DNA of 64,000 bases from Mumia sp. ZJ1417. Lineage in GTDB: Bacteria > Actinomycetota > Actinomycetes > Propionibacteriales > Nocardioidaceae. The notes under the pieces are model-generated. The model was not told the origin of the DNA, did not search any database, and saw only the letters and a program-made list of their open reading frames with translations. The stretch's first letter is position 1. Every line of letters starts with the position of its first letter. The position numbers and the translations under genes were made by a program. Shown here one piece after another: positions 1 through 16,811 of this stretch. The stretch spans positions 2,418,001-2,482,000 of the forward strand of contig NZ_CP059901.1 in assembly GCF_014127285.1 (NCBI RefSeq). Reading direction: 5' to 3'.

Positions 1-162
1 GAAAGCAAAGCCGACTCGTACAGCGCACCTAAGGCAAACCGATTCAACCGACGACGCCTGTTGGCACGGTTGCCGCTAGCGAGGGTGAGATCTAGGAGAT
101 CAGACTTTTTCTGGAAGTCGGATGCCAAGCGGGCAACCGTCGGTCTCCCAGGCATCGCCTAA
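1..162 (+). CDS. Possible 3' end of an upstream gene (partial)
   Basis: One plus-strand frame is open from the first base to a TAA at 160-162, giving 53 residues rich in Arg and Leu with no recognisable domain. It would overlap the stop codon of the convergent DUF262 gene by a few bases. Base composition is lower in GC than the core genes further right, so this may be the tail of an island gene. It could equally be a chance open frame; nothing in it identifies a product. Confidence 0.2.
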   Translation, partial: ESKADSYSAPKANRFNRRRLLARLPLARVRSRRSDFFWKSDAKRATVGLPGIA

Positions 163-1229
163 GTTCCATTCACCAGGTAGAGCAGGCGGGCACGACGACT
201 CCCCACATCGGTGGCCGCTCCTCGCGTGGCCTTCAGCACCTCCTCCGGCAGGCGGCCAGCAAGTCCCGCATGCCGGCCACCCAGCTCAAGTCGGTTCAGG
301 TTGAACCCCTTGTCGATTTGCCTCTGGCTCTCGGGGTCGATCGGGTCACCGAACTTCGAGTCGTGCACGATAGCGAATAACACGTACAGCCATCCCTGTT
401 TGCCAAATTTCGGGTATTTGATGGAGTCGCCACCAGGGGCCAACATCTCTTGGAGCTTCTTGAGAGTGGCCCGCACTCGACTGGCCACCTCGTCGCGTTC
501 CGGGAAGGCGAGGTCGTGGTCCCTGTATAGGGAATCTAGAGCGCTGTTGCTTTTACCCCGCAGTCCCGTTAGGACATAGAAGACGAGCTCGCTTGTGAAC
601 TCAACGTCTTTCATTTCGGCGATCTGATTGACCGTGAAGGCACCCCAGTTCGTCCAGTTCTCAAGGTTTTCATATGATAGCTCGTATACCAGTTGCTTCA
701 GTTCACCATGGTAAGCGGCGTTACGAAGCTCTTGCCGGTTAAGACTTCGGCCTGTGCTGTTCATGCGCGCGAAGACCTCAAGAATTTGCTCGCGCCGGTA
801 GCCGTTCCCTAAGACGTGAACACTGAATTCGGTATCAAGAATTCGCTGCTGAAGTCCATGAGGCAAATCCGAGAAGGCGCGTCCCGCCAGTTCACGGTTA
901 TGCGTACCCATGAGGACGAACCCATCCCGTTCCTCATAGTCAATCAAGCACGTGCGGTCGACGTACGCAAGGACAGTTCGCAGACGTTGTTGGCCATCCA
1001 CGACACGGCGGATCGATTTAAAGGTCTTGGCGTCGGTTTGTGACTGCAGTAGCAGCAGCGGAACTGGGAAGCCCTTCACTAGAGTGTCGATGAAGTACGA
1101 CTTCGCCGACTCAGTCCACACGCTGTTCCGCTGGAAGTACGGGCGGAGGTCGAGCGTTCCGGAGCGTTGCCAGTCCAAAAAATCAGCGACGCTGTAGACC
1201 GTCTTAAGGACCGAGCGAGTGTCTGTCAT
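159..1229 (-). CDS. DUF262 (GmrS/ParB-like) domain protein
   Basis: A 356-residue protein with a DUF262 domain at the N-terminus. The diagnostic DGQQR motif is at about residues 78-82 (VVDGQQRLRTV), preceded by the RPYFQRNSVW segment typical of the family. In GmrSD and SspE proteins this domain binds and hydrolyses nucleotides and is normally joined to a C-terminal DUF1524 HNH nuclease. Here no nuclease domain follows, so this is a DUF262-only form. The ATG at 1229 is preferred because the conserved domain starts just after it; an in-frame extension reaches 1364. It converges on the left edge, is divergent from the HNH gene, and sits in a cluster of restriction-type genes, so a regulatory or NTP-sensing role in defence is inferred. 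Confidence 0.8.
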   Translation of the reverse strand: MTDTRSVLKTVYSVADFLDWQRSGTLDLRPYFQRNSVWTESAKSYFIDTLVKGFPVPLLLLQSQTDAKTFKSIRRVVDGQQRLRTVLAYVDRTCLIDYEERDGFVLMGTHNRELAGRAFSDLPHGLQQRILDTEFSVHVLGNGYRREQILEVFARMNSTGRSLNRQELRNAAYHGELKQLVYELSYENLENWTNWGAFTVNQIAEMKDVEFTSELVFYVLTGLRGKSNSALDSLYRDHDLAFPERDEVASRVRATLKKLQEMLAPGGDSIKYPKFGKQGWLYVLFAIVHDSKFGDPIDPESQRQIDKGFNLNRLELGGRHAGLAGRLPEEVLKATRGAATDVGSRRARLLYLVNGT

Positions 1230-1521
1230 GGACGCAGCATAGGGGCAACCGTCCTGTCGCAGCGTCGATCCCATGCGAGAGCGGGCGTCAATGGCGCAGC
1301 TCTGAAGCGGAGACCACCGGCTCTGAGGGCCGACGTTGGCGCGGCGAGAAGTAGGCACCCTCACTCGACGTACCCACTCGCAGACAAATCGGTTCTGCCC
1401 GAATACGGGCCGCGCGGGCGCGGCACTTTCGGCGTGGGTTCGCTCCGCTTGAAGGATGAGGAAGGCGCCAGGAGGATCCAGCGGTCCCCTCGCCCAGAGT
1501 CACACGGCGCTCATTTCAACG
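1230..1521. other. Divergent intergenic region, no gene seen
   Basis: This stretch separates the divergent DUF262 and HNH genes and should carry both promoters. No confident promoter hexamers, repeats or hairpins stand out. The HNH gene could also start at an ATG at 1456 inside this region. Confidence 0.4.
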
Positions 1522-2577
1522 ATGCCGCCAAGAGATAGACACCTCGCAATCCTCAGCCGTGCTGCGCTGGCCGGCTGGCCGAACGAGGTGACCGGCACGA
1601 TCTCGCGAATAGTCAGTCGCGTGCCACTCGCGAAACAGCTGCGAAAAGGCACGGCACCTGCCAAGCTGGGGTTTGTGACCGACCTGTCAGTCGAGCTTTT
1701 GAAGCGCGAGGCACTGATGCATGCGATCGCGGCAGAGTTTACGCAGACCGCTGTACTCACGAGCAAGTGGCTAGGGCGTGTTGATTTCGGCTTCGGCCCG
1801 GAGCGCATCAAGGACGTCGGAAAGGGGATCTGGAACCCAGCGTCGTACGCCGGAACGCTCACTATAGTGAGCGACCCCGATGGTGAGTACGACGACGGGG
1901 CGCATGGCGACTCGCTCTATCGATACGCGTACGAGAAGCGACCGGCTGGACAGGACCCACGTGGCGGGTCGAACGTCAAGCTCCGCCGAGCGATGCAACT
2001 TGGCCTCCCGATCATCATGCTTCGAAAGATTCACGACGGTCAGTTCGCGCCTGTCATGCCTGTCTATGTCGTGAAAGAGGAGCCCGAGCATCAACGTTTT
2101 CTGCTCGCGCTCGACGAAAGCCTTCGCTTTCTCCCAGATCCTGCCCATCTCACTGAAGACCAACGCCGCTATGTCGAGCGAGTCGTCCGCCAGCGATTGC
2201 ATCAACCGGAGTTCCGCGCGCGCGTCCTTGGCGCCTATGAGCTCAAGTGTGCGGTATGCGACCTCAAGAAGGCTCCGCTAATCGACGCCGCGCACATCAC
2301 GGCAGATGGCGCGGAGGACGGACTACCGGTCGTCGCCAATGGACTCGCCCTATGCAAGATCCATCATGCCGCGTACGACGAGAACATCCTCGGGATCTCC
2401 CCCGACTACGTGGTCCACATCAACGGCGGCGTGCTTTCTGAAGTCGACGGCCCAATGCTGAAATACGGATTGCAGCAGATGGACCGTCGCGCGTTGTGGG
2501 TTCCCCGGAGAGCAGCGCACAGACCTGACAAGGAGCGCCTTGCGCATCGGTTCGAAGCCTTCAAGGACGCCGGCTGA
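1522..2577 (+). CDS. HNH endonuclease with SRA-like N-terminal half
   Basis: About 350 residues. The C-terminal third is an HNH nuclease: a CAVC pair, then DAAHI, then a NGLALCKIHHAAYD segment carrying the metal-binding His and Asn residues. The middle section (a YDDGAHGDSLYRY stretch, then the GSNVKLRRAMQLGLPIIML segment) resembles the SRA/YDG-type domain found in modification-dependent HNH endonucleases, which flip out and read modified cytosine. That assignment is by eye and less certain than the HNH call. The chosen start is the ATG at 1522, where family-like sequence begins; an in-frame ATG at 1456 is possible. The last 17 bases overlap the end of the convergent vsr-like gene. Inferred role: cleavage of DNA in the same defence cluster, perhaps dependent on base modification. 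Confidence 0.75.
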   Translation: MPPRDRHLAILSRAALAGWPNEVTGTISRIVSRVPLAKQLRKGTAPAKLGFVTDLSVELLKREALMHAIAAEFTQTAVLTSKWLGRVDFGFGPERIKDVGKGIWNPASYAGTLTIVSDPDGEYDDGAHGDSLYRYAYEKRPAGQDPRGGSNVKLRRAMQLGLPIIMLRKIHDGQFAPVMPVYVVKEEPEHQRFLLALDESLRFLPDPAHLTEDQRRYVERVVRQRLHQPEFRARVLGAYELKCAVCDLKKAPLIDAAHITADGAEDGLPVVANGLALCKIHHAAYDENILGISPDYVVHINGGVLSEVDGPMLKYGLQQMDRRALWVPRRAAHRPDKERLAHRFEAFKDAG

Positions 2578-3067
2578 AAGCATTTGTCCGTCGAGCCTGG
2601 ACCGCATCGATCACGCGCTGGGCGACCTCCTCGGCCGGTTCGTGCTCCCATGCTCGAAGGACGAGCCAGTCGTAGCTCTCCAGTGCGTGATCGGTTTCGC
2701 GATCTCGCGCCCGATTCCTCGTCACTTTTGAGGCCCAGTACTCTCCGTTGGACTCCGCTACAGTGTGATGTTCTGGGCATCCATGCCAGAAGCATCCGTC
2801 AATGAAGATGGCGATCTTGAGACCTGGAAACACGATGTCGGCGCGTCGATTCAGCCCGGCTAGAGGCCTGAAATCGACTCGGTAGCGAAGTCCGGCCGCG
2901 TGCACCAACCGTCGTACGGCGATCTCAGGCTTCGTATCCCGCGAGCGGTTACTCAGCATCGACCGTCGTACGGCGGGAGTTGATGCCCAGGATTCTGCCC
3001 GACGAGCAGGCCCGCGCGCCCGCGTAGTGAACTCGCCGGTGCCGCCCACGGGACAACCGTACGTCAT
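2561..3067 (-). CDS. vsr: Very short patch repair endonuclease (Vsr)
   Basis: Vsr enzymes nick 5' of the T in T:G mismatches created when 5-methylcytosine deaminates, starting repair to C:G. The 168-residue product carries the family signature: SWASTPAVRRSM, then RSRDTKPEIAVRRL, then RRADIVF (catalytic Asp near residue 77) and FIDGCFWHGCPEH near residues 88-100. The conserved SWAS segment begins around residue 26, so the start must lie upstream of it; the ATG at 3067 fits and a GTG at codon 7 is an alternative. Vsr genes accompany cytosine-C5 methyltransferases, and one lies 8.5 kb away in this island. The 3' end overlaps the convergent HNH gene by 17 nt. Confidence 0.9.
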   Translation of the reverse strand: MTYGCPVGGTGEFTTRARGPARRAESWASTPAVRRSMLSNRSRDTKPEIAVRRLVHAAGLRYRVDFRPLAGLNRRADIVFPGLKIAIFIDGCFWHGCPEHHTVAESNGEYWASKVTRNRARDRETDHALESYDWLVLRAWEHEPAEEVAQRVIDAVQARRTNAFSRRP

Positions 3068-3180
3068 CGAGGGGGTGGACGGGGCGGCGAGGATGGCTCA
3101 GCCGGGTCAGCCGTACGCGAGACCCGCCCGGCCTCTTTCCCAGACGCTTCGCGCCGCGATGCGAGGTGGCTGCCAAAGGG

Positions 3181-6100
3181 TCAGGAAGCATCGAAAGCGA
3201 CCTGGATTCGCACGGTGCCGTCAGTCGTGTGCAGCAAGGCATCTCCCTGGCCGGCCAACGACTCGGCACCGGTCTCGTCGAGAACGATTCGGCTATCCGT
3301 CGCGGTCTTGACCCGCAGCGCGAGCTGCGCAGGAAAGTTCGACCTGATGGTCGTTGAGATCACGTCTGCACTCGGACGCTGCGTTGCCGCGATCACGTGG
3401 ATGCCGGCGGCGCGGGCCTTCTGGGTAAGCCGTCGGAGCAGATCCTCGATCGATCGCTTGTCCTCGGGATCGCTGGTGAGGTCAGCGTACTCATCCAGCA
3501 CGATGACGATCCATGGCTTCTTGTCGGCCGCATCGACCTTCGCGTTGAACTCGACTAGCTTCCGTGCGCGCACAGCCTTCATGGCGCGATAGCGGTCCTC
3601 CATTTCATGAACCGCAGTTTGAAGGACCTGGATCGCGTCGTCAGCGTCCATCCCGATCGTTCCATCGACATGCGGATCGTCCTCGAAGTCGACGAGTTCC
3701 GTGCCCTTGGGATCCACCAGTTGCAGGCGCACTGACGATTGGTCGTATCGGATCAGACCCTTGAGGATTGTGTCGAGAGCGACAGACTTTCCAGAACCGG
3801 TTGTACCGGCAACCAAGAGGTGCGGAGAGTCCGGCGACGAGAAACGGATCTCGACCGGGCGGCCGGCGATGTCGGCACCGACGGGCGCCACCAGGTCGCG
3901 TTCGTCGACCGGGCACCTCGCCCACAACGCGGCCGCTGGTACGCCGTACTTCTCGCCCTCCAACTTGGGAATCTCGAACACGACAGCTCCGCGATCATTC
4001 CTCGTACGGATGCTGTACCCGGCCGGCAACCCCAGGGCGAGGAAGACCTCCTCGCGACGGTTCACCACCTTGTCGACGGTGACACCCGGCCGGGGTACGA
4101 AGCGAAGCACATAGAACCCGGGGCCCTCCTGCCACGATTCCCCGAGGTCCGGAGGGCCGACCTGCACGTTGTGCAGTCCGAACACGTCGAGGACCCTGTT
4201 GTATCGTCGCCGGAGCTCGTCATCGCCGAGCCCTACAACATGGGCGAAAGTCTTCTCGGGTCCCTCCACCGGTTCAAAGAGGGCTCTGTCATCGGGATGT
4301 TGAGAACCATCCCGGACTGCGATCTCGTCAAACGTGACCGATGGCCGACCAGCGGCGGCCACTTCTGTGGCGTCTGCCAATGACACCGCCCGGTCCATCT
4401 TGAGACCCGGGAACGCAACGACTGGCTGTGAAGTTGGGTCGATCTGCGCGCGAAGTAGACCGATCACTTCCTGAAGCTCCGGCCGATTCAGTCGTAAAAG
4501 TGAGTGTCTCCCAAGAGCATGCGGAGCCGGTGCCGGCTCTTCCTGCGCAGCGGCAGTTGCGACGGCTACACCATCGACCCGATCGAGATTGACGTTGCCA
4601 GCCCGCAGCTCTTCGATGATGCGCGCCTCAAGACCGAGCCGCGAGGGTCCGACTAGCCGTCGCGAGGGAAGCTCGGAGCCACGGAGTTCCTCGTTGCTGG
4701 TTTGCTCGATGGCTGAGGCCAGCTCGTCAAGCCAGAACCTGTGGTCATCCATCGCCTCTTCGCCGGATGCAAATGCCGAGCGACAGAGATCGGTCGTGCG
4801 GTTGAGCTGCTCCTCCGCAGCACCGTGGTCGTACTCCTGCCGGAACTTCGACTCGACGACGAGCACCGATAGTGACACGTTGCCACTCTCGTTGAGCTTG
4901 AGCACAAATCGGCCGAGATCCGCCCGTGTCTTTGCACCCCGCCCGAACCATCTTTGCTGTTCGTCGAAACTCAGCCAGACGACGATGCCGCTCTCCTCCT
5001 CAGGCACAGGGAAGCGCTGCGCGATCACGAAGCGGGCTGCAACGAGGCCGACGATCTCGTTGATGGTGGTGCCGATCCCTAGCGACCTCAACACCGCACC
5101 CGGCACCACATTTCGACCTACTGAGTAGAACCTGGCGGCTGTCGCCTCGGCTTCGGTGCTCTCCACGACGCCAATGTCCGTCAGTCGTCGTCGCAAGCGC
5201 CTCACCACGAGTTGCCGTCCGGTCTGTGAGCTTACGATCAGCGTGTACGCCTCGTTCTTGCCAACGCTTGGTTTGACGAGTATGACGTCCGGACGGTCAT
5301 TGAGGTTGTCTATCTGGTCGCGACCGATGAAGGAATCGAGGGTCACGACCCAGTGTGCGACGTTGTGGAGGGCCAAGAACAACTGCTGGTGCTGGTCGAA
5401 CTGAACCTGCATCTCGAAGTAGTCGGTGTTGCTCTCCTTCTCGCGGGCGACAGCCGAGCGTCGGTCGTACCGGACGCAAAGGGTGGACCAGGTTTCAAGG
5501 AGTGCATCCGGCGAACTCGGAAGGAGTTCGCGGACGACATTCTCGCTCGACTCGGTCAGATTGTGGGCGGCGGTGTGCGTCCACGGGTCGTATCGACCAG
5601 CCATTGTGGCCGCCGGGTCCCGTGTACTCGCGTTGAGGCTCGTCTGCGTCCCGAAGAGCGCTGGCGCGAGAGCGATGTCGACAGAGTCCTCCAGGCCGCT
5701 GAGGTCCGCATCGCGATCGGAGTTCCACGGCTTCAGGACGAGCTGAACGTCCGGAAGAAACCGCTCCTCGGGAAGGTCGGACTCCGCGAACTCGGTGTCG
5801 AACGCTTGAATGATCCCGTGGTGTGTCTCGAGCGGCGCGAGACACACAAGGTCCAAGCGCAGTCTCGGATTCCTAGCACGGACGCGCTTCGCCACCCGCA
5901 CAGGCAGCACCGAGTCCCCGTTCCGATCGAGCAGGAGGACTGACAGTCCGTCGAGCTTGTGTGGGTAGGTGGAGAGGTAATCGGAAATGACGCGAACCAT
6001 CTCGTCGATTGCAGTTTCGTCGACCGCAGCGAGCCAGTCACGCGACTCGCTGCCTCCCTGGCGCACGGGCGCGTACTCTTCGTGCCCTGCCGACTCGCGC

Positions 6101-8166
6101 ACCGGAATCGCAGCCGTCTGGTTGGGTCCCACCACTACGGCCGGCGTGCCGTGCGGCGAAACACGCTCAATCGTGTCGAAGAACAGGTCGCTGTTCTCCG
6201 GGTTGAGCTTCAATCCCTCGGTGAGGGCCTTCGAGATCAGTTCGGTCAAGTGCGTGTAGTGGTGTGCCAGCCACCGCAATCGCAGCGGGTGTGTTGCTAG
6301 CGTGGCCAAACGGTGCTCAGCAAGGCGTACGACGTCACTAAGCACGACGTCGGAAAGATCAGCATCCGGAGCGTTGGCGGGTACGAGCTGCGCTCGAGCC
6401 CGACTCATCACCTGAGCCCACTCATCCAAGTACGAACCAATCCGCTCGGCATCGACGCCGTCGACCAACTCTCCGAAGTGTCGGCGGCGGAGGTGGAACA
6501 GTTCAGCCGCGAACTGGCCGGTGGGGATATCCACAGAACGCCGCGGCCAATCGCGGGGGTCACCGAACTGATCGAGGAACTCATCGAAGCTCCCTTCGAA
6601 GACCTCCCCCGGCGACATCTCAAACCCGTTGAGCAAGGCTGCGACCGCGATCTGTCCAGGCGTGGCGAAAGGATCCCACCGGAACCGTCGTTGGGCCCCG
6701 CCTTGCATCTCGACGACGACCCGGATCGGCGCCCACGCCTCGCTAGGGTCGAACGGCTCATCGTCAGGCGGCAAGTCCGGAGTTCTACAGTCCAAAAGGC
6801 ATGCTTCGACCTGTAAGCCGAGCCTCAGACCCACCGACGCCTGCACACGCCTGAGACTCTTCCCGTAGAGAAAAGCGAACAGCCATCGCGTCCAGGCGCC
6901 AGCTTCTAGGCCCCCCTCGACCCTAACTACAACCGTGCCCTCTTCTTCCTCATCGAAGTAGGTGAGCTCCCGCAATAGCGCACGCAACGGGTCGACGGCG
7001 ATTAGCGAATCGGGGAACGCGATCTTTTCTATCCGACGCCTTAGTCGCTTGGGTAGCAAGTCAGCAAGAGCCTGCACATCGACTGGTGGCTCTGCAAATA
7101 GGAACCGTTCCGCGGCTTCTTGATCACTGCGGTCTAGGTTCTCCTCGACTAGAAGCGCGTCGAACTCGTCGAGCCGCCCGTCGTCAGCGCGCTGGATCGC
7201 CTCTCGAATCTGACGTCCGAGTCCGACCTTCATCGAGCGCTTCTCGAACAACTCAAGCCATAGAGGAAGATCAAGTACCCGACGGGAGTCGTCCGATAAC
7301 GCGAGCGACATCACCAGCCTGCGCATGTGCCCCTTTGCGTCCTCCAGTGAGAGATTCACGCTCTCAAGCCGCGGCAAAGTGAATTCGGCGGCATCGATCC
7401 GCCCGAGCAGATCTTCGTCGGTCAGCAACGCGCCACTCGGCTGTCGCAGGCTGCTAACGCGGACGTTCTTTCTGACACGAGCCTCCAACGCACTGTCCGA
7501 ATTAAACAGATCGCTGTCTGGGAACAACCCGAGGCTCGGAAGTGAGCTTGCTACGGCGTGTTGAATCACTTCGGTCGCATGCACGGGCGCTCGGCCTACG
7601 ATCGCCGCGGACTCCACGAGAAAGCGAGCCAACTGGCGTAGCGACCGGCTCTCTTCTTCGGATTCGGAAACGGTGTCCCATACACGCTTCTGGTACGCCT
7701 CAAGAACGGCGGGCACCCTGCCGTCGCCGCCCACCTCCACCCATGCCTCGTGCGCGAAGGTCTCAAACCGGCGTTCTTGGTCGGGGCCACTCAACAGCAC
7801 AGAGCCATCAAGTCGATTGACGGCCGAGAGGCCTTGAGCGTCCGGAGGCACACCCCAGTCGAAGAGCAGTACGGACGCTCCTTCGCCGGTGACGTTCCGC
7901 CAGGCGGTCAGCTGTGCCCCAACCTCAAGAAGGTAATCATCAGGAACGTCCTCAAGCTTCTCGGACGTCCCAACCTTCACGATGAGATTCGGCGCCTTGC
8001 CTTTGGTCTGCCGCTCAGCAACCTCCGTCAGGGCAGCCCGGACAATGGACTTCTCGAAGCCGGCAACTCGTAGCGCAGCCCGAGTCCCGCCGGAACCTAC
8101 AGTCACGGAGTCCAGCGCCGCCAGAGCAACGAAACGGCCGAGCGTCCTGTCCGCTGCGTCGATCAT
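3181..8166 (-). CDS. DptH-like FtsK/HerA-type ATPase, restriction component
   Basis: A very large protein (1661 aa). Only the C-terminal 210 residues are readily recognised: an FtsK/SpoIIIE-type motor with Walker A GTTGSGKS near residue 1454, Walker B IVIVLDEYADL near 1553-1563, and a TQRPSADVI segment. The preceding ~1400 residues show no membrane segment or familiar domain by eye. Size, C-terminal motor and position as third gene of an F-G-H-ordered operon resemble DptH, the DNA translocase-like member of phosphorothioate-dependent restriction modules. The start overlaps the stop of the 456-aa gene by 4 nt, indicating translational coupling. Coding DNA is visibly less GC-rich than in the core genes. 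Homology to DptH specifically is an inference; the FtsK-type motor is seen directly. Confidence 0.75.
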   Translation of the reverse strand: MIDAADRTLGRFVALAALDSVTVGSGGTRAALRVAGFEKSIVRAALTEVAERQTKGKAPNLIVKVGTSEKLEDVPDDYLLEVGAQLTAWRNVTGEGASVLLFDWGVPPDAQGLSAVNRLDGSVLLSGPDQERRFETFAHEAWVEVGGDGRVPAVLEAYQKRVWDTVSESEEESRSLRQLARFLVESAAIVGRAPVHATEVIQHAVASSLPSLGLFPDSDLFNSDSALEARVRKNVRVSSLRQPSGALLTDEDLLGRIDAAEFTLPRLESVNLSLEDAKGHMRRLVMSLALSDDSRRVLDLPLWLELFEKRSMKVGLGRQIREAIQRADDGRLDEFDALLVEENLDRSDQEAAERFLFAEPPVDVQALADLLPKRLRRRIEKIAFPDSLIAVDPLRALLRELTYFDEEEEGTVVVRVEGGLEAGAWTRWLFAFLYGKSLRRVQASVGLRLGLQVEACLLDCRTPDLPPDDEPFDPSEAWAPIRVVVEMQGGAQRRFRWDPFATPGQIAVAALLNGFEMSPGEVFEGSFDEFLDQFGDPRDWPRRSVDIPTGQFAAELFHLRRRHFGELVDGVDAERIGSYLDEWAQVMSRARAQLVPANAPDADLSDVVLSDVVRLAEHRLATLATHPLRLRWLAHHYTHLTELISKALTEGLKLNPENSDLFFDTIERVSPHGTPAVVVGPNQTAAIPVRESAGHEEYAPVRQGGSESRDWLAAVDETAIDEMVRVISDYLSTYPHKLDGLSVLLLDRNGDSVLPVRVAKRVRARNPRLRLDLVCLAPLETHHGIIQAFDTEFAESDLPEERFLPDVQLVLKPWNSDRDADLSGLEDSVDIALAPALFGTQTSLNASTRDPAATMAGRYDPWTHTAAHNLTESSENVVRELLPSSPDALLETWSTLCVRYDRRSAVAREKESNTDYFEMQVQFDQHQQLFLALHNVAHWVVTLDSFIGRDQIDNLNDRPDVILVKPSVGKNEAYTLIVSSQTGRQLVVRRLRRRLTDIGVVESTEAEATAARFYSVGRNVVPGAVLRSLGIGTTINEIVGLVAARFVIAQRFPVPEEESGIVVWLSFDEQQRWFGRGAKTRADLGRFVLKLNESGNVSLSVLVVESKFRQEYDHGAAEEQLNRTTDLCRSAFASGEEAMDDHRFWLDELASAIEQTSNEELRGSELPSRRLVGPSRLGLEARIIEELRAGNVNLDRVDGVAVATAAAQEEPAPAPHALGRHSLLRLNRPELQEVIGLLRAQIDPTSQPVVAFPGLKMDRAVSLADATEVAAAGRPSVTFDEIAVRDGSQHPDDRALFEPVEGPEKTFAHVVGLGDDELRRRYNRVLDVFGLHNVQVGPPDLGESWQEGPGFYVLRFVPRPGVTVDKVVNRREEVFLALGLPAGYSIRTRNDRGAVVFEIPKLEGEKYGVPAAALWARCPVDERDLVAPVGADIAGRPVEIRFSSPDSPHLLVAGTTGSGKSVALDTILKGLIRYDQSSVRLQLVDPKGTELVDFEDDPHVDGTIGMDADDAIQVLQTAVHEMEDRYRAMKAVRARKLVEFNAKVDAADKKPWIVIVLDEYADLTSDPEDKRSIEDLLRRLTQKARAAGIHVIAATQRPSADVISTTIRSNFPAQLALRVKTATDSRIVLDETGAESLAGQGDALLHTTDGTVRIQVAFDAS

Positions 8167-9533
8167 CGAGGCTCCCCGTGGACGATGCTAGTGGCGTCGG
8201 AGTAGTGCGTGAGCAGACCTGTCGCAGCTAAGCGAGAGCGAAACGCATCGGAATTACGGGAAAGGACTGACGCATCGACGTCGACCGTCAGGTCGTGCTC
8301 TCCCGCAGTGCGGTCGTCGATGATGATGTTGTACTCGTCGTAGAGTCGAGAGCAGAAGCTGTAGAACTCCTCCTCCGAGCCCGGCGCGAGGCTCGCTGAG
8401 ACGAGGGCCTCAAGCATTGGTGGCTTCATAGTGAAGTGCCGGCGCCCGGTCGTGGCGTTCAACGCTCCGACTGCCGCCAGTGTTTCGGAGAAGAACGAAC
8501 GCGGTGAACCTGTTGCCGTGGAGCTCGGTGACATCTGCCGAACGTAGCGATTCGCCAATGTATCGTTGCCCTCGCTCCGAGCTCTTTTGTGCAGGGCGGT
8601 CGCACGCGCGATGATCGCATTCACAATGTCCTTCCGGAACTCCTCAAGCGCGTTCTGGGAGAGCCTCCGAAGCGGGGTAGCATCCTTCGCGAAGTCCGAG
8701 AACACCGCCTCCGGGGCTCGTCCCAGCGACTTTCGAGCAAGATGCAACTGATGGCGCGCAAGGCAATATGGAGCCCAGTGCATTAGGCACTCGGTTCGTT
8801 TCGACCGTGGCAGCTCGCCTCGTGAGACAATGAAATGCACGCCACGTCGCAGATGTTCAGGCCACGGGCTGAAATCGTCGAAGATTTGGATCTCCGATTC
8901 AGAACCGTCTTCGTAAGGCTCCACATCCTTTGCGAAGTCGTGGCTTCGAAGCGCGTGCGCGACCTCGCCTAGTGGCGACCCACTGTCTCGGACTAGCTCT
9001 AGCAGACCCTCCCGGGTTCCGGCGCGACGGGTGTCATTCGGATCTGTTCGAAGGACCCGATATGCCCAGGTTCCACCATCGCGGAAAACGTACCGCTCGA
9101 TGTGCGGAACCTTTGTGCCGCGGGGGAGTCTCGCCTCCCACCGTTCCGCAGCATCGTAGTGAATCAGCTCTCCAACGAATGGATACAGATGGGTATTGAA
9201 CCAGCTTGGTGACTTCCGGCGGCCAGGAATCTGGACTAGTAGCGATGATGACAGGGCCTGAAGGGTTGCCCTGGTGTCTTCCCCGTCGACTGCCAGTTCC
9301 AGCGTCTTGTCATCGATCCTTGCGTTAACTGCAACTCGGCGGGCAAAGTCATGGGACGCCCGAAGGTACGCCACGGAAGCGACATCCTTGTTGAGGAGTG
9401 CACCTGGGTCGATCTCGTAGACACCTCGAGCGATGGCAAGTAACTCAAGCGACACGTAGAAACCGCGGCCTTGCTGCTCCAGGTTCACGCCAAACAGGTC
9501 AAGGACGACCTCTGCCTTCGATCGATCGGCCAT
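8163..9533 (-). CDS. DptG-like protein, restriction component
   Basis: A 456-residue soluble protein with no signal peptide, membrane segment or catalytic motif I can name. Its identification rests on position and size: it lies between a DptF-like ATPase and a DptH-like motor with a 1-nt overlap upstream (TGATG) and a 4-nt overlap downstream, exactly where DptG sits in phosphorothioate-dependent restriction operons. A segment near the middle, HWAPYCLARHQLHLARKS, is reminiscent of the conserved core of that family, but this is memory-based. Coupled translation of all three genes suggests the products form a complex. Treat the function as inferred from context. Confidence 0.6.
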   Translation of the reverse strand: MADRSKAEVVLDLFGVNLEQQGRGFYVSLELLAIARGVYEIDPGALLNKDVASVAYLRASHDFARRVAVNARIDDKTLELAVDGEDTRATLQALSSSLLVQIPGRRKSPSWFNTHLYPFVGELIHYDAAERWEARLPRGTKVPHIERYVFRDGGTWAYRVLRTDPNDTRRAGTREGLLELVRDSGSPLGEVAHALRSHDFAKDVEPYEDGSESEIQIFDDFSPWPEHLRRGVHFIVSRGELPRSKRTECLMHWAPYCLARHQLHLARKSLGRAPEAVFSDFAKDATPLRRLSQNALEEFRKDIVNAIIARATALHKRARSEGNDTLANRYVRQMSPSSTATGSPRSFFSETLAAVGALNATTGRRHFTMKPPMLEALVSASLAPGSEEEFYSFCSRLYDEYNIIIDDRTAGEHDLTVDVDASVLSRNSDAFRSRLAATGLLTHYSDATSIVHGEPR

Positions 9534-11488
9534 CAGGCACGCACCGACCTGATCTGGTCACCAACGTCGATCATGAGCTTGCGGGGAACCGCGCCAACAA
9601 GCACCTGGATTACCTCATCTTCACTACGCGCATCCGCGAGGGTCGCCAGCGTGCTTGTCAGTCCTCGGATCTCCGCTTCATGTTGCGTCCCGCTCCGCAA
9701 ACCTGCGGCCCAGCGATTGAGCAGCTCGAATCGCAGCAGGTCGACCTCGACGGCAACCGGGCGACGGCCGCGCGGACCCGGGATTCTCACAAAGATCGCC
9801 CGGTTCAACCACTCCACCGCCTGATGGAGCACCGGTTCGGGCGCGCCGGGCGTCGCCTCGCTCATCCAATGGCTCACCTGATCGACCACCTGCACGTGGC
9901 GGTTGGTCACGCTGCGCGAGACGACAGATGCCCTCGTGCGATGTGAGAAGAATGCCGGATCCAGCACCAGGAAGTCGGGGTTACTCCCAACGCGATGGAT
10001 CCCCTGGACAGCTTCGAGCCCTTTGAGCATGACATCGCGTACCTCTGTCTTTCTTGCGTCGGGCGTGTCTGGCGTCACCTTGACGAAGGCATCACCTGCA
10101 CTCAGCCCGAGCCGGGCGAAGCGGTCCGACGCATCGCTGTTGAAGAGGTCGGCGCGTCTGAGGAACACATAGAGGCTCTTGAGATCCGCCGCGTCCCGCT
10201 GTGCATCTTGGGTCGTCGAGATACGGCGGCCGCCGTTGCCAGGCGTCGGCGGAAGGAAGGCAACTGCTGCGGACTCAGGCTCTAGTACGTCGTCAACCTG
10301 TCGGCGAGAGATCCTGCCGGGATCCAGTCGACGCAGGGCCAAGATGGCGGGCACCTGCTGGCGTTGCTGCGGCGAAAGTCGATCGCCGAAGAGCGCTTGG
10401 TGATACTGATAGGGGTGCTGCCACGATCTGTCCGCGCGCGCGTTCCGATATCGACGGTGGACGTTGTCGCAAGTAAGACCGCCTGTGATGCCGTGCGCGA
10501 GGGTCGCGAGAGCCTGCCGGGTGGTGATTACCGATCCGGTGCGCTCTGCTGCGCTAAATAGGTCACGGATCGCGCGACGGCGCGTCGGACCGCTGGACGC
10601 ATCGGACAGAGCTTCGTGGTTGGCCAAGATCGGGCAGATGTCTCTGGCATCACAGCGCTTGCAGACCTGCCAGGACCGCCTGTCGGCAGCCCAGTTCCGA
10701 GTCGCCCAGTCGACGAGGCCGTCGCCCTCTCGGTCTGGAGCAACAGACTGGTAATTGAGGTTGATCACCACGACTGCGCCATCGCTGCTGGCGACACTAC
10801 CCTGGGCGATCCCCGCCCCGAGCGTGTCAACGACGACCTTGGCACTCTCGGAACCGTCCGCCGCCACACACTCGCGGAGTTGCCCTTCGTTCGCGCAGAG
10901 GATCGCAACCCCGCGCTGGGGTGGCTCAAGCAGATCGATCAGGCGCTTGGCTCCGACGCTCGGGGAGAACTGGCTCAAATCCTTGATCATGAAGATCGGT
11001 CGACCAGCTCGGGTCTGGCCGACCGGTTCTCTGCCGTCGACGCCACCCCGCTCAACCGCTGCGGCAGCATCCACCTTCGTCGCGCCCAGGTCCTCAAGCA
11101 GACCTGCACAAAGGCTGGTCTTTCCATGCCCCGCATCGCCGGTTAGCACCACCGTGCGGGTTGCAGAAAGCTCGACGACCGAGAGCAGGTAGTCGCGGGT
11201 CGCGACGCGGAACGTCGGCTGGTTATGGTCGGTCTGGCGCTCGAACACTAGGTCAGCGCTGTCTGCGTCGAAGGGCTGGTATCGGTGCAATCGCCCGACG
11301 TGACCGTTCACCTCGAGCGCCACTATTCCCGACCTCGCTTCGCTGTCGATCCACGTCGTTGCACATCGTAACGCCGCGCTGAGGGCGTACGTGGCAAAGC
11401 GTGACACAAAGCCGACTGGGCGGACTGAATTCCGCGTGGTGTCGGTGGGGACGGGCACTATGAGGTGGGATCGTGGGACGTTCTTCAC
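9533..11488 (-). CDS. DptF-like P-loop ATPase, restriction component
   Basis: Up to 651 residues. A clear Walker A motif, GDAGHGKTS, is at about residues 117-125, followed by an AAA-like core including LCANEGQLRE and VVINLNYQSV. A cysteine cluster, CKRCDARDICPI (Cys 276, 279 and 285), probably binds zinc. ATPase core plus cysteine cluster resembles DptF, the first gene of the FGH restriction module. The start is uncertain: GTG at 11488 has a purine-rich stretch only about 2 nt away, and GTG at 11407 would remove 27 residues of unconvincing sequence. It is divergent from the cytosine methyltransferase and shares its control region, which links the two in regulation. Involvement in methylation-guided restriction is inferred. 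Confidence 0.7.
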   Translation of the reverse strand: MKNVPRSHLIVPVPTDTTRNSVRPVGFVSRFATYALSAALRCATTWIDSEARSGIVALEVNGHVGRLHRYQPFDADSADLVFERQTDHNQPTFRVATRDYLLSVVELSATRTVVLTGDAGHGKTSLCAGLLEDLGATKVDAAAAVERGGVDGREPVGQTRAGRPIFMIKDLSQFSPSVGAKRLIDLLEPPQRGVAILCANEGQLRECVAADGSESAKVVVDTLGAGIAQGSVASSDGAVVVINLNYQSVAPDREGDGLVDWATRNWAADRRSWQVCKRCDARDICPILANHEALSDASSGPTRRRAIRDLFSAAERTGSVITTRQALATLAHGITGGLTCDNVHRRYRNARADRSWQHPYQYHQALFGDRLSPQQRQQVPAILALRRLDPGRISRRQVDDVLEPESAAVAFLPPTPGNGGRRISTTQDAQRDAADLKSLYVFLRRADLFNSDASDRFARLGLSAGDAFVKVTPDTPDARKTEVRDVMLKGLEAVQGIHRVGSNPDFLVLDPAFFSHRTRASVVSRSVTNRHVQVVDQVSHWMSEATPGAPEPVLHQAVEWLNRAIFVRIPGPRGRRPVAVEVDLLRFELLNRWAAGLRSGTQHEAEIRGLTSTLATLADARSEDEVIQVLVGAVPRKLMIDVGDQIRSVRA

Positions 11489-11576
11489 AACCCCCTTGCG
11501 GGTAGCCGCCCCGCTGCCAGTCTCGAGTAGGCTGACAACTCGGTCGGACCAACGAGAGCGCCACGGAGGGATAGGG

Positions 11577-12710
11577 ATGGCAAGCAGGCACCCCCTTCAC
11601 GAAGTCCGGCGCCCCGACTTCGAGCTCGGAGAACGCCACCTCAGAGTCGTCGATCTTTTCGCTGGATGCGGTGGCCTGACGCTCGGTGCAGCACAGGCAG
11701 CACATGATCATGGGCTGGCGATTGAAGTACCACTAGCGGTGGACTTCGAGCAGGCTCCCTCCGACGTCTTCAAGGCAAACTTCCCGAAGGCGAACGCTCA
11801 TGTCGCAGCAGTCGAGAGCTACTTCGATGGTGCGATCGGCGCCGAACCGACTAGGACCGAACTCAATGTGAGCGAGCAGGTCGGAGCGGTCGATCTACTC
11901 ATCGGGGGGCCCCCATGCCAGGGGCACTCCAACCTCAACAATCACACCCGGAGAGACGACCCAAAAAACAGGTTGTACCTGCGCATGGCGCGTGCCGCCG
12001 AGGTCCTGCGTCCCCGCGTCGTTGTGATCGAGAACGTGCCCGCAGTCGTGCATGATTCGCAGCAAGTGGTCACCCGGACAACGGAGGAGCTCACAAGGAT
12101 TGGGTATCGAGTCGCCGCGACCCGGGTTGAGCTCGTTCAGCTGGGAATCCCTCAGACGCGCCGTCGCCACATCCTCTTGGCGGTGCGTTCAGATGCGCTG
12201 ACCGCAGGCCTCTCGGTCGAAGATCTCCTTAAGTTCGAACCACAGAACACTCACGACCTCCGATGGGCGATCGGCGATCTTGAGCACGCCAGCACGGACC
12301 GTTGGATCGATGTTCCGTCGAGAATGAGTCCCGAGAACCAGAAACGCATCCAGTGGCTCATCGACCACGACGAGCTGAACCTGCCCAACGAACGGCGCCC
12401 CAAGTGCCACCAGGGTGACCACTCGTACGTTTCGATGTACGGCCGCTTGGCCTGGTCGCAGCCCGCCCAAACGATTACGAGTGGGTTTGGAAGCATGGGC
12501 CAAGGCCGATACGGCCATCCGTCGCAGCCTCGGACGTTGACGCCGCACGAAGCGGCCCGAATCCAAGGTTTTCCTGACTACTTTCGTTTCGACGCTGCAG
12601 TGACGCGTACCCAACTGTCGGTCATCATTGGGAATGCGGTCCCACCGGCGCTATCGCGCGTGCTCACGACCCGCTTGATCGCGCTCAGAGTCCTCGACAG
12701 CGACTCCTGA
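11577..12710 (+). CDS. DNA (cytosine-5-)-methyltransferase
   Basis: A 377-residue enzyme that transfers a methyl group from S-adenosylmethionine to C5 of cytosine in a specific DNA sequence. The canonical motifs appear in order: FAGCGGLTLG (motif I, about 28-37), GGPPCQGHS with the catalytic Cys at about 114 (IV), IENVP (VI), QTRRRHILL (VIII), then TLTPHEAARIQGFP (IX) and IIGNAVPPAL (X). The target-recognition region between VIII and IX is short. The ATG at 11577 is chosen for the GGAGGG ribosome-binding site 6 nt upstream; the frame stays open upstream but contains no conserved motif. It is divergent from the DptF-like gene and is the only DNA-modifying enzyme in the island, so it is the likely self-marker for the linked nucleases. 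Its target sequence cannot be read from the gene. Confidence 0.95.
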   Translation: MASRHPLHEVRRPDFELGERHLRVVDLFAGCGGLTLGAAQAAHDHGLAIEVPLAVDFEQAPSDVFKANFPKANAHVAAVESYFDGAIGAEPTRTELNVSEQVGAVDLLIGGPPCQGHSNLNNHTRRDDPKNRLYLRMARAAEVLRPRVVVIENVPAVVHDSQQVVTRTTEELTRIGYRVAATRVELVQLGIPQTRRRHILLAVRSDALTAGLSVEDLLKFEPQNTHDLRWAIGDLEHASTDRWIDVPSRMSPENQKRIQWLIDHDELNLPNERRPKCHQGDHSYVSMYGRLAWSQPAQTITSGFGSMGQGRYGHPSQPRTLTPHEAARIQGFPDYFRFDAAVTRTQLSVIIGNAVPPALSRVLTTRLIALRVLDSDS

Positions 12711-13067: not shown

Positions 13068-16040
13068 TCAGCTGCAGCCGCTGGTCGCGCCGCAGCCCTC
13101 GCACACGTGGCACGAGCCGGCCGGGCGCATCTTCGTACCGCAGGTGAAGCACAGCGGTGCGTCGACCTCCGTACCCGAGATGACCTGCAGCAGCTCGGCG
13201 CTGGTGTGCGCCTGCTTCGGTGCGGGACGGGCCGACTCGGCGACCATGTCTCCGTCGACCTGGGTCTCGCGCTTGATCTCGGCCTCGGCGGCGGCGGACG
13301 GCTTGGCGTCCTTGGCCTCGACACGGCCTCGTTCCTCGGACTGCTCGACCGGCGGCTGTCCCGTCGGCGAGGTCTTCAGCGACTCAGGCTCGGAGACTTC
13401 CTCCTCCACCGGCGCGTACGACCCGGTGTCGAGCTGGCGCTGGCGCTCGTCGGCCGAGTGGATGCCCATCTGCGAGCGCACCTCGAACGGCAGGTAGTCC
13501 AGCGCGAGCCTGCGGAAGATGTAGTCCATGATCGACTGCGCCATCCGCACGTCCGGGTCGTCGGTCAGACCGGCCGGCTCGAACTTCAGGTTGGTGAACT
13601 TCTGGACGTACGTCTCGAGCGGCACCCCGTACTGGAGACCAATCGACACCGCGATCGAGAAGGCGTCCATCACGCCGGCCAGCGTCGAACCCTGCTTGCC
13701 GAGCTTGAGGAACACCTCACCGAGGCCATCGTCCGGGTACGAGCCCGAGGTCATGTAGCCCTCGGCACCACCCACCGTGAACGACGTCGTCAGCGACGGC
13801 CGCGTCTTAGGGAGACGCTTGCGGATCGGCTTCTCGACGACGACCGTCTTGACCGTCTCGACGACCTCGGCCGGCTTGGCGGCGTTGGAGTCCTTGCCCT
13901 TGTTCTCGCCCTTGCCGGACGAGAGCGGCTGGCCGACCTTGCAGTTGTCGCGGTAGACCGCGAGCGCCTTCAGGCCGAGCTTCCAGCCCTGGAAGTAGAT
14001 GTCACCGATCTCCTCGACGGTTGCCGTCTCCGGCATGTTGACCGTCTTCGAGATCGCGCCCGACAGGAACGGCTGCGCCGCCGCCATCATCCGGACGTGA
14101 CCCATCGGCTTGATGGACCGCTCACCCATCGCGCAGTCGAAGACCTCGTAGTGCTCGGTCTTCAGGCCCGGCGCGTCGATGACGTGACCGTGCTCGGCGA
14201 TGTACTCGACGATCGCCTCGATCGTCTCGTTGGTGTAGCCGAGCTTCTTGAGCGCGACCGGGATCGTCTGGTTGACGATCTGCATCGAGCCGCCACCGAC
14301 GAGCTTCTTGAACTTGACCAGCGAGAAGTCCGGCTCGATGCCGGTCGTGTCGCAGTCCATCATGAAGCCGATCGTGCCGGTCGGAGCCAGCACCGACGCC
14401 TGCGCGTTGCGCCAGCCCTGCTTCGTGCCGATCTCGATGCCCTTGGCCCACTGCTTCGTGGCCTCACGGTGCACGGCGATGTCCATCGCGTGCATCGTGC
14501 GGACCGCGTCGTTGGCGGCCTGGTGCTTGCGCATCACGCGGGCGTGCGGCTCGGCGTTCTGCTTGTAGCCCTCGTACGGACCGACGATGCCGGCGAGCTC
14601 CGCCGAACGACGGTAGGAGGTGCCGGTCATCAGCGACGTGATCGCCGAGGCGAACGCGCGACCGCCGTCGGAGTCGTACGCGAGGCCCGACGCCATGAGG
14701 AGCGCACCGAGGTTGGCGTAACCGATGCCGAGCTGACGGAACTTGCGCGTCGTGTCGCCGATCGCCTCGGTCGGGAAGTCGGCGAAGGTGATCGAGATGT
14801 CCATCGCGGTGATGATCAGCTCGGTCGCCTTCACGAACGTGGCGACGTCGAACGAGCCGTCGTCCTGCAGGAACTTCAGCAGGTTGAGCGAGGCCAGGTT
14901 GCACGACGAGTTGTCGAGGTGCATGTACTCCGAGCACGGGTTGGACGCGGTGATGCGACCCGTCTCCGGCGTGGTGTGCCAGTCGTTGATCGTCGAGTCG
15001 TACTGGATGCCCGGGTCGGCACACTCCCACGCGGCCTGCGCGATGTCCTTGAAGAGCTTCTTGGCGTCGATGGTCTCGATGACCTCGCCCGTCGTACGGG
15101 CGCGCAGCCCGAACTCCGAACCCTCCTCGACCGCCTGCATGAACTCGTCGGTCACGCGGACCGAGTTGTTGGCGTTCTGGTACTGGACAGACGAGATGTC
15201 CTGCCCGCCGAGGTCCATGTCGAAGCCGGCGTCACGGAGGACACGGATCTTGTCCTCCTCGCGCGCCTTCGTCTGCACGAACTCCTCGATGTCGGGGTGG
15301 TCGACGTCGAGCACGACCATCTTGGCCGCACGACGCGTCGCGCCGCCCGACTTGATCGTCCCCGCAGACGCGTCGGCGCCGCGCATGAACGACACCGGAC
15401 CCGAGGCCGTACCGCCCGAGGAGTGCAGCAGCTCCTTGCTCGAGCGGATGCGCGAGAGGTTGAGGCCGGCACCGGAGCCGCCCTTGAAGATCAGACCCTC
15501 TTCCTTGTACCAGTTGAGGATCGAGTCCATCGAGTCGTCGACCGCGAGGATGAAGCAGGCCGAGACCTGCTGCGGGCTCGACGTGCCGACGTTGAACCAC
15601 ACCGGGCTGTTGAAGCTGAAGACCTGGTGAAGAAGCATGTACGTGAGCTCGTGCTCGAAGACCTCGGCATCGGCGTCCGTCGCGAAGTAGCCGTTGTCCT
15701 TGCCGGCCTTCACGTACGTCAGCACGACGCGGTCGAGCAACTGCTTGAGCGACTGCTCACGCGTGTCGGTGCCGACCGCGCCACGGAAGTACTTCGTGGT
15801 CACGATCGTCGACGCGTTGACGCTCCAGAAGTCGGGGAACTCCACCCCGCGCTGCTCGAAGACCGTCGCTCCGGTCTTCCAGTTGGTCTGCACGACATCG
15901 CGACGCTCCCACGTCACCTCGTCGTACGGGTGCACGCCCTCCGTGGTGTAGACCCGGTTGATCGTGAGGCCCTTGCCTGCACGCTTGGTGGTCTTGCGCC
16001 CCCGCGCAGCCCCGCTCGGTCCACTGACCGTCTCCGTCAT
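13068..16040 (-). CDS. nrdJ: Adenosylcobalamin-dependent ribonucleotide reductase (class II)
   Basis: Reduces ribonucleotides to deoxyribonucleotides using adenosylcobalamin to generate the thiyl radical, so it works with or without oxygen. The 990-residue length suits NrdJ. Visible features include VSACFILAVDDSMDSI with a redox-active Cys, the active-site NPCSEYMHLDNSSCNLASLNLL segment, and a Cys-rich C-terminus (FTCGTKMRPAGSCHVCEGCG) that acts as a swinging reductant or metal-binding tail. The ATG at 16040 is chosen because AGAAGGGG lies 8 nt upstream; upstream in-frame starts lack this site. It follows nrdR with 49 nt between them and is probably cotranscribed, hence controlled by the NrdR boxes upstream of nrdR. 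Confidence 0.97.
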   Translation of the reverse strand: MTETVSGPSGAARGRKTTKRAGKGLTINRVYTTEGVHPYDEVTWERRDVVQTNWKTGATVFEQRGVEFPDFWSVNASTIVTTKYFRGAVGTDTREQSLKQLLDRVVLTYVKAGKDNGYFATDADAEVFEHELTYMLLHQVFSFNSPVWFNVGTSSPQQVSACFILAVDDSMDSILNWYKEEGLIFKGGSGAGLNLSRIRSSKELLHSSGGTASGPVSFMRGADASAGTIKSGGATRRAAKMVVLDVDHPDIEEFVQTKAREEDKIRVLRDAGFDMDLGGQDISSVQYQNANNSVRVTDEFMQAVEEGSEFGLRARTTGEVIETIDAKKLFKDIAQAAWECADPGIQYDSTINDWHTTPETGRITASNPCSEYMHLDNSSCNLASLNLLKFLQDDGSFDVATFVKATELIITAMDISITFADFPTEAIGDTTRKFRQLGIGYANLGALLMASGLAYDSDGGRAFASAITSLMTGTSYRRSAELAGIVGPYEGYKQNAEPHARVMRKHQAANDAVRTMHAMDIAVHREATKQWAKGIEIGTKQGWRNAQASVLAPTGTIGFMMDCDTTGIEPDFSLVKFKKLVGGGSMQIVNQTIPVALKKLGYTNETIEAIVEYIAEHGHVIDAPGLKTEHYEVFDCAMGERSIKPMGHVRMMAAAQPFLSGAISKTVNMPETATVEEIGDIYFQGWKLGLKALAVYRDNCKVGQPLSSGKGENKGKDSNAAKPAEVVETVKTVVVEKPIRKRLPKTRPSLTTSFTVGGAEGYMTSGSYPDDGLGEVFLKLGKQGSTLAGVMDAFSIAVSIGLQYGVPLETYVQKFTNLKFEPAGLTDDPDVRMAQSIMDYIFRRLALDYLPFEVRSQMGIHSADERQRQLDTGSYAPVEEEVSEPESLKTSPTGQPPVEQSEERGRVEAKDAKPSAAAEAEIKRETQVDGDMVAESARPAPKQAHTSAELLQVISGTEVDAPLCFTCGTKMRPAGSCHVCEGCGATSGCS

Positions 16041-16089
16041 GTGATGCCCCTTCTCCCCCATGTTGCCCCGTGAAATGTGTTGTTGAGTC

Positions 16090-16578
16090 TCAGCTACCGG
16101 CGGAGCGCTGCTCCGCGGCAAACTCGTTGTCGGCGTTGGCCGCCATCAGCGTCGCGATCTCGTCCGCGAAGTCCGACACGTCCGTGAAGTTCTTGTAGAC
16201 GCTGGCGAACCGCAGGTAGGCGACCTTGTCGAGCGCCTTGAGGGGCTCGAGCACGGCGAGCCCCACCTCGTGCGAGCTCACCTCTGCTCCCCCGGCAGCA
16301 CGCAGCGCGTGCTCGACCTGCTGGCCGAGTCGCGCCAGGTCGTCCTCGTCCACAGGGCGGCCCTTGCACGCCTTGCGCACTCCACTCACGGCCTTGTCGC
16401 GCGAGAACGGCTCCGTGGCACCCGAGCGCTTGCACACCGTGAGCTGAATCTGCTCGACGGTCGTGAAGCGCTTGTTGCACGCGGTGCAGCTCCGGCGGCG
16501 GCGGATCGCTCCCCCGTCGTCGGCGACGCGGCTGTCGAGGACCCGGGTGTCGGTGTGCCGGCAGTACGGGCAGTGCAT
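16090..16578 (-). CDS. nrdR: Transcriptional repressor NrdR
   Basis: A 162-residue ribonucleotide-reductase repressor. The N-terminal zinc ribbon has two CxxC-type pairs (MHCPYCRH and [10 protein letters not shown]), followed by an ATP-cone that senses ATP/dATP levels ([21 protein letters not shown] onward). When dATP is plentiful NrdR binds tandem boxes and shuts off RNR genes. The ATG at 16578 has GAGGAG 6-7 nt upstream. It heads a two-gene operon with nrdJ, and its own promoter region carries two candidate NrdR boxes, so autoregulation is likely. Confidence 0.97.
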
Positions 16579-16650
16579 CTCGGCTCCTCTCGCTGTGGAC
16601 GGAAATGTGGAGAACCACGGTTTCCTGTGGGGTTCGCCACTGGCCCTTGT

Positions 16651-16666
16651 GGACTAGATGTGGATA
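16651..16666 (-). promoter_or_regulatory. NrdR box, promoter-distal copy 2
   Basis: Reads TATCCACATCTAGTCC on the minus strand, sharing the CACATCTAGT-type core with the other box. It lies 73 nt upstream of the nrdR start, and its register is exactly 31 bp from the second box, matching the three-helical-turn spacing of NrdR sites. Confidence 0.7.
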
Positions 16667-16681
16667 ACTACATCCGTGTAA

Positions 16682-16697
16682 GTACTAGATGTAGTGG
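16682..16697 (-). promoter_or_regulatory. NrdR box, copy 1
   Basis: Reads CCACTACATCTAGTAC on the minus strand, a near-palindrome of the NrdR-box type. It is paired with the box at 16651-16666 at 31-bp spacing, upstream of nrdR-nrdJ. Confidence 0.7.
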
Positions 16698-16811
16698 CTA
16701 CCGTACGCGTCCGACCCAGCCCATGCAACTTAGTCTCACGTGTCGCGCCGACATTTCTGTCCTCGCAGGTCAGAGGCGGTTTTGGGCGTACGGCGCGGCG
16801 TGTCGCGGGTC

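Follow-up and report, generated by a model that had tools for sequence, protein, structure and literature searches.

How the DndFGH and SspFGH proteins distinguish marked from unmarked DNA is an open question, and phosphorothioate (PT) is a hard mark to manipulate. A locus of Mumia sp. ZJ1417 raises a related question: can an FGH-type nuclease be keyed to a methylated base? The locus lies in a stretch of 64,000 nucleotides (contig NZ_CP059901.1, positions 2,418,001 to 2,482,000 of the forward strand), which we call the window and to which all coordinates refer unless another locus is named. It holds homologs of F, G, and H beside genes for a C5-cytosine DNA methyltransferase (M) and a Vsr-type mismatch endonuclease (V). 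With an FGH homolog that has one ordinary C5 methyltransferase, the question of marked and unmarked DNA could be asked using methylated versus unmethylated plasmids. The locus is also relevant to the published claim that FGH acts on its own, without modification.

Linkage of FGH with a C5 methyltransferase and vsr

A C5 methyltransferase is present in all eight of the clear non-MADS actinobacterial FGH loci that we recovered, which are those of the window, of a second genome of the same order (G105), of Agromyces sp. Soil535, Cellulomonas composti, Cellulomonas sp. Root485, Cellulomonas terrae, and Williamsia muralis, and of a more distant genome of the phylum (G486). A vsr gene is likewise present in all eight, with a broken frame in G105. 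The pairing of FGH and methyltransferase that a sequence-only reading of this DNA had proposed thus recurs in other genomes, also at a very divergent locus.

The gene layout differs among these loci. M adjoins F in five of the eight, and only vsr stands between M and F in the other three. The window, G105, and Williamsia have M diverging from F, and the three Cellulomonas have M diverging from F together with vsr; all genes are co-directional in Agromyces, where M lies 432 bp upstream of FGH. G486 has a tight operon in the order M-F-G-H-V, with overlaps of 4 nt between M and F and between G and H, and gaps of 2 nt between F and G and 6 nt between H and V. As orientation and the position of vsr vary, the linkage of M with FGH survives rearrangement. 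In G105, the vsr gene (8188-8622 of locus L009), next to H, is split over two frames and thus looks broken, and the frames of M and FGH are open. In Williamsia muralis, a second C5 methyltransferase gene stands between H and vsr. This second gene (15210-16741 of locus L020, then vsr) encodes a dissimilar protein of 373 amino acids (aa) and occurs besides the divergent M.

Genes matching PF00145 number about 15 per ~40 Mb in the eight genomes (three adjacent matches in G105 counted as one). At that density, by our own estimate, fewer than 1% of genomes would have a C5 gene within ~5 kb of FGH by chance. In three of the eight genomes (the window's, Agromyces, and G486), no C5 methyltransferase match other than the linked M was found.

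H was searched for in 391 genomes of the order; the window's genome and G105 matched clearly and one other marginally. A scan of 84,980 species genomes, which used two short peptide patterns and may have missed relatives, added the five named genomes at 48-68% identity. Within the genus of Root485, the cassette is carried by 3 of 81 genomes, the same three Cellulomonas, and so it is rare and scattered. The distant form in G486 came from an H profile run over 396 genomes of the phylum; its H is 24-26% identical to those of the window clade. Of 346 genomes of the phylum, 34 matched an F profile, four of them strongly (window, G486, G583, and G497). Marginal H matches in G012, G614, and G645 (E ~8e-4, 16-17 bits) and weak F-profile matches in 30 genomes (18-24 bits) were not counted. 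Scans of viral contigs contained no relative, and phage records gave no match at E<=0.001.

Seventeen plasmid loci with SspFGH-type genes served as controls; they were fetched from among the matches (5 of 11, 1 of 1, 3 of 4, and 8 of 17 records, several of the unfetched ones being repeat records or species). By tblastn over the fetched stretches, SspD is carried by 14 of the 17 plasmid loci versus none of the eight actinobacterial loci, and no plasmid stretch has a C5 methyltransferase or vsr match. For C5 methyltransferase and vsr (8/8 versus 0/17), Fisher's test gives 9e-7, uncorrected for shared ancestry. One of the 17, L037 from Piscinibacter, is a MADS locus with an N6-type methylase, and in the fetched stretches of two others, L031 and L038, none of the modification genes searched for was found. 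In the trees, the seven close loci form one clade (SH-aLRT 100 for H and 99 for G), apart from a 14-row group of which 13 have SspD. The G tree joins G486 to the seven (SH-aLRT 92), and the H tree leaves its placement open; both trees leave out L014, and long branches make their deep order unsure.

The FGH and vsr genes

The three core genes lie on the minus strand. H (SspH/DndH-like, 1661 aa) occupies 3181..8166, G (SspG-like, 456 aa, the predicted DNA-reading subunit) 8163..9533, and F (an SspF-like P-loop protein) 9533..11323. The open reading frames (ORFs) of H and G overlap by 4 nt and those of G and F by 1 nt, just as the sequence-only reading had described. Its sizes for H and G stand as well, and its size for F has to be revised: the longer ORF (9533-11488) encodes 651 aa, and comparison with relatives shifts the start to a GTG at 11323, which leaves 596 aa. 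The motif M[AST]LEVN at this start is present in all six close relatives, and the GTG codon was confirmed.

Homology to FGH proteins, which had been proposed without searches, was confirmed by PADLOC models (SspH 1e-98, SspG 9.7e-13, and SspF 1.5e-34); G was also aligned with 11 relatives. The proposed DptFGH-like character is correct as to FGH kinship but not as to type, since the Ssp models matched and no Dnd model matched the window proteins at E<=0.1. By sequence, we conclude that the module is of the SspFGH type and not of the DndFGH type.

The FtsK motor, P-loops, and methyltransferase motifs that had been noticed earlier are all present. Motif inspection places a Walker A motif in F. 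The C-terminal part of H has an FtsK_SpoIIIE domain (PF01580, 1.7e-33), where the FtsK/HerA motor covers approximately residues 1422-1656 and includes FtsK Walker A and B motifs. H also carries the nuclease motif D1083...E1105-x-K1107. On reading an alignment of 24 H proteins, we found D...ExK in register in 23 rows; in H of G486, the ExK is offset by two columns and the D still lines up.

Structural comparison added little to these assignments. An AlphaFold2 model of H residues 541-1235 has a pLDDT of 56.6, and its best Foldseek matches are methyltransferase folds, none at E<=0.001. A phmmer search of H against PDB returned seven sequences that matched the motor only, all of them FtsK, DNA translocase coupling protein, or secretion ATPase. 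For G, no PDB chain matched the profile at E below 0.88. Passages of PMC10853773 describe DndG as three winged-helix domains and DndH as holding inactive adenine-methylase and target recognition domains.

The vsr gene (2561..3067, minus strand) lies 113 bp behind H on the same strand. Its product matches TIGR00632 and PF03852 above their cut-offs and PADLOC Vsr at 1.2e-12. The sequence-only reading had missed this gene.

The methyltransferase and its divergent control region

M (11577..12710, plus strand; PF00145 6.4e-46) is a C5-cytosine DNA methyltransferase of 377 aa and the sole PF00145 match in the window's genome. Its ORF extends over 11391-12710 (439 aa), and relatives place the true start at the ATG at 11577. 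The motifs DLFAGCGG, GGPPCQGHS, ENVP, and GNAVPP are intact. After the start corrections, F and M are spaced by 253 bp (11324..11576) instead of overlapping as ORFs; the two genes diverge across a shared control region, as described in the sequence-only reading.

This intergenic region holds CTCGAGTAGGCT upstream of M. A block of the form CTCGAGTA[GC]GCT (11522-11533), ~50 bp upstream of M, occurs in five of the eight loci (window, G105, and the three Cellulomonas); it is possibly a promoter with an operator or a self-methylation site. Cellulomonas composti has three CTCGAG within 120 bp before M. We considered CTCGAG as the target of M, as it lies upstream of M in five of the eight loci, and dropped it: the window contains 66 sites versus an expected 47 +/- 8, and because the site is so common there, we claim no target for M.

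Within M, residues 268-319, between motifs VIII and IX, are 75-90% identical to the window's sequence in all six close relatives; residues 201-267, just before, are 31-63% identical. Such a conserved segment would fit a common target site. M of Agromyces is only 54-59% identical to the other close M proteins, compared with 72-75% identity to the window and G105 for its F, G, and H. An exchange of M in Agromyces was considered and dropped, as the M tree does not settle the matter and even joins Agromyces, the window, and G105, without support (59/32).

Search for phosphorothioation genes

Three PT genes or families were sought in the seven genomes with the close form, a set that leaves G486 outside. 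An SspD protein query found sspD in none of the seven and matched all five positive-control plasmid records; a dndC model found none in the seven and matched five of the 14 control genomes without exceeding its cut-off in any; and the SspB family (DUF4007) was found in none of the seven in a search where no control matched either. The genome-wide negatives cover these three only, and dndB, dndD, dndE, and CxC-DndE were not searched at that scale. In G486, a 19.9-kb stretch had no Ssp match. The sequence-only reading had seen no dnd or ssp locus; this agrees with the absence of dndC and sspD matches in the genome, where other dnd and ssp genes were not fully searched. With none of the phosphorothioation genes sspD, sspB, or dndC found, the cassette does not constitute a whole PT-based Ssp or Dnd system.

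A proposed role for 5-methylcytosine as self-mark

From the linkage, which is observed directly, we infer guidance of FGH by 5-methylcytosine (5mC), and with it a target site, a complex of F, G, and H, a direction of discrimination, and a role in defence. Given the homology and the constant linkage, the simplest reading is that 5mC serves as the self-mark and FGH acts against unmarked DNA. We consider it likely that M marks host DNA with 5mC, that FGH attacks unmarked DNA, and that Vsr repairs deaminated 5mC. The cassette would then be an anti-invader unit resembling restriction-modification (R-M), with four core genes and a helper. M would methylate cytosine at a specific site of the host. 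F, G, and H would form a complex in which G, together with parts of H, reads DNA, F senses or gates by way of bound nucleotide, and H supplies the FtsK/HerA motor for movement along DNA and the PD-(D/E)xK nuclease for cutting it. This complex would attack DNA without 5mC, as SspFGH and DndFGH attack DNA that lacks PT, and Vsr would mend the T:G mismatches that arise from 5mC deamination, allowing methylated sites to persist.

Seen more broadly, we lean toward regarding FGH as a translocating nuclease module of general use, to which different self-marks can be coupled. M-F-G-H-V would be its 5mC form, a lineage separate from Ssp and from the N6-methylase MADS, in which Vsr is kept because the 5mC mark is itself mutagenic. 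If true, the same effector can be re-keyed to sulfur, N6-methyl, or C5-methyl marks.

The main rival is a standalone role, in which FGH restricts by cues of its own (foreign nucleotides, replication or transfer intermediates, or sequence) and M and Vsr form a separate travelling methylation unit, which could serve as a regulator or as a shield against other restriction systems. This is the model proposed for DndFGH in passages of PMC10853773, and it is consistent with the position of M outside the FGH operon in seven of the eight loci (divergent in six, upstream in Agromyces) and with the FGH modules of L031 and L038, where no modification gene was detected in the fetched stretch. It fits poorly with the retention of M in all eight loci across rearrangements and its translational coupling in G486, and M was present in every FGH locus of this type that we came across. 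We therefore regard a standalone role as unlikely.

The direction of discrimination could also be reversed. FGH would then attack methylated or hypermodified DNA in the manner of a Type IV system, and M would serve to establish an abortive or alarm response. According to passages of PMC10853773, related systems do have HNH proteins with modification-reading domains beside them. However, constitutive 5mC on the host's own DNA would make the host the target, and the mark is protective in the characterised PT relative, where SspFGH damages host DNA when PT is missing (both as given in parts of PMC8092258). We consider this alternative highly improbable.

Several points weigh against 5mC as the self-mark that guides FGH. 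The seven close loci share ancestry, and so eight of eight is not a count of eight independent events; by the G tree, G486 and the seven may even go back to a single event. H of the window matches PADLOC mad8 (4.7e-28) over the FtsK motor only, and is thus not close to Ssp alone. The AlphaFold2 model of G, built from six sequences, has a mean pLDDT of 42.9 and is uninformative about a three-winged-helix make-up. Passages of PMC10853773 argue that DndFGH is often decoupled from modification and is a standalone system. The local association with vsr may partly reflect the chromosomal spot beside nrdJ, which is described below.

Comparison with known systems

Among the closest known systems is SspABCD-SspFGH, a defence based on single-strand phosphorothioate (PMC8092258). 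Its F, G, and H are homologous to those of the window and identically ordered, and both sets have a protein with Walker A, D...ExK, and a motor like FtsK. The locus differs in having a C5 methyltransferase and Vsr, with no SspD found in the genome, and its H is only 17-20% identical to five PT-linked H proteins. The likeness to DndABCDE-DndFGH and DptFGH lies in the three subunits and in an H that combines motor and nuclease (architecture according to passages of PMC10853773); here, in contrast, the PADLOC matches are to Ssp and not to Dnd models, and no dndC was found.

MADS provides a precedent. At the Piscinibacter locus, an FGH-like core (the C-terminal part of MAD6, MAD7, and MAD8) adjoins a base methylase, and MAD2, MAD3, MAD6, MAD7, and MAD8 all score above their NCBIfam cut-offs. 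Kinship of this core with the other systems is evident, as F of the window matches the MAD6 region (3e-9), MAD7 matches SspG (1.8e-8), and MAD8 matches DndH (9.5e-7). The strong F-profile matches in G583 and G497 are also MADS loci, in which the F-bearing proteins and the next genes exceed the MAD6 and MAD7 cut-offs; G497 also has an N6-type methylase that shares 53% identity with the one in another MADS locus, and C5 methyltransferase and vsr matches are absent from both stretches. An FGH-like core can thus sit with a base methylase, and the window is not the first methylation-linked FGH. The primary MADS paper is Maestri et al. 2024, as cited in PMC12904381.

Could the window hold a divergent, reduced MADS with an FGH-like core and another methylase? 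The relationship of the F-, G-, and H-like genes of L037 to those of the window, Ssp, and Dnd points in this direction, as do the mad8 match of the H motor and a weak MAD7 match of G (E=0.0017, NCBIfam). However, MADS includes a Type I-like specificity subunit alongside its N6-type methylase, as well as MAD3, MAD4, and a kinase-fused F. Among the seven window proteins scanned (159-12710), there was no mad2-mad5 match and no kinase fused to F, and the scores were far below the NCBIfam cut-offs (17.5 bits versus 410 for MAD7, 20 bits versus 175 for MAD8). A reduced MADS is thus a most improbable explanation; judged from the protein sequences, the window appears to fall outside MADS, and the kinship of the FGH core stands.

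In CxC-DndE systems, a C5 methylase replaces the PT genes of a Dnd-related system, according to passages of PMC10853773. There, unlike in the window, the methylase accompanies an ABC ATPase-DndE core and an HKD nuclease-helicase instead of FGH. Those passages describe cytosine methylases with CxC-DndE and not with FGH, as restated in part of a BREX paper (PMC12839542). In the open PMC literature, taken as titles and the beginnings of abstracts and with subscription papers and bioRxiv outside this scope, no description of FGH with a C5 methyltransferase and Vsr was found.

Neighboring genes and the chromosomal spot

On the far side of vsr, and overlapping its end by 17 bp, is an HNH endonuclease gene (1456-2577, plus strand). 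The C-terminal part of its product matches a PT-dependent restriction enzyme model, below the cut-off of that model. An ordinary Type II R-M system could therefore be imagined, in which M, Vsr, and this HNH protein as endonuclease stand beside FGH by chance in a defence island. The pair of C5 methyltransferase and Vsr is indeed like that of Type II R-M, and the HNH gene adjoins vsr in both the window and Agromyces (L016, 42% identical). However, HNH relatives occur in only two of the eight loci (tblastn; one contig, L017, stops ~260 bp behind H, and its far side is outside this count), and the constant nuclease partner is the three-protein FGH with its motor. A conserved Type II endonuclease accompanying M was not found, the HNH protein being the only one sought and other endonuclease types in the flanks unsearched. 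In a sister species, G085 (L070), the corresponding chromosomal spot holds an HNH gene of 56% identity, with no FGH in the fetched stretch, and so HNH behaves as a separate gene. As M and FGH also co-occur in other genera, we think a chance neighborhood of this kind very unlikely.

The spot itself is variable. The nrdJ gene (13068-16121, minus strand) adjoins a variable region of about -1531 to 13021, and in four genomes of the same genus (L068-L071) the stretch on the nrdJ side has different gene content. Two sister species, G088 and G298 (L068 and L071), have different C5 methyltransferases with vsr at this spot, and the vsr of G088 is 59% identical to the window's. This variability is a point in favor of the Type II reading, and the nrdJ spot may have contributed the window's vsr. 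Because relatives carry other genes beside nrdJ, the cassette looks like a mobile occupant of a variable spot. The spot alone nevertheless fails to explain the pairing, as M remains paired with FGH at other sites in other genera.

Beyond the HNH gene lies a gene for a DUF262/GmrSD_N-only protein (159-1364, minus strand; PF03235, PADLOC NsnA 2.7e-39), for which tblastn found no match in G105 or in the loci of the five named genomes. We considered the HNH and DUF262 proteins as parts of the cassette and rejected both, as neither is conserved with FGH. DUF262 proteins are annotated near some of the SspFGH-type plasmid loci (L011, L034, and L038).

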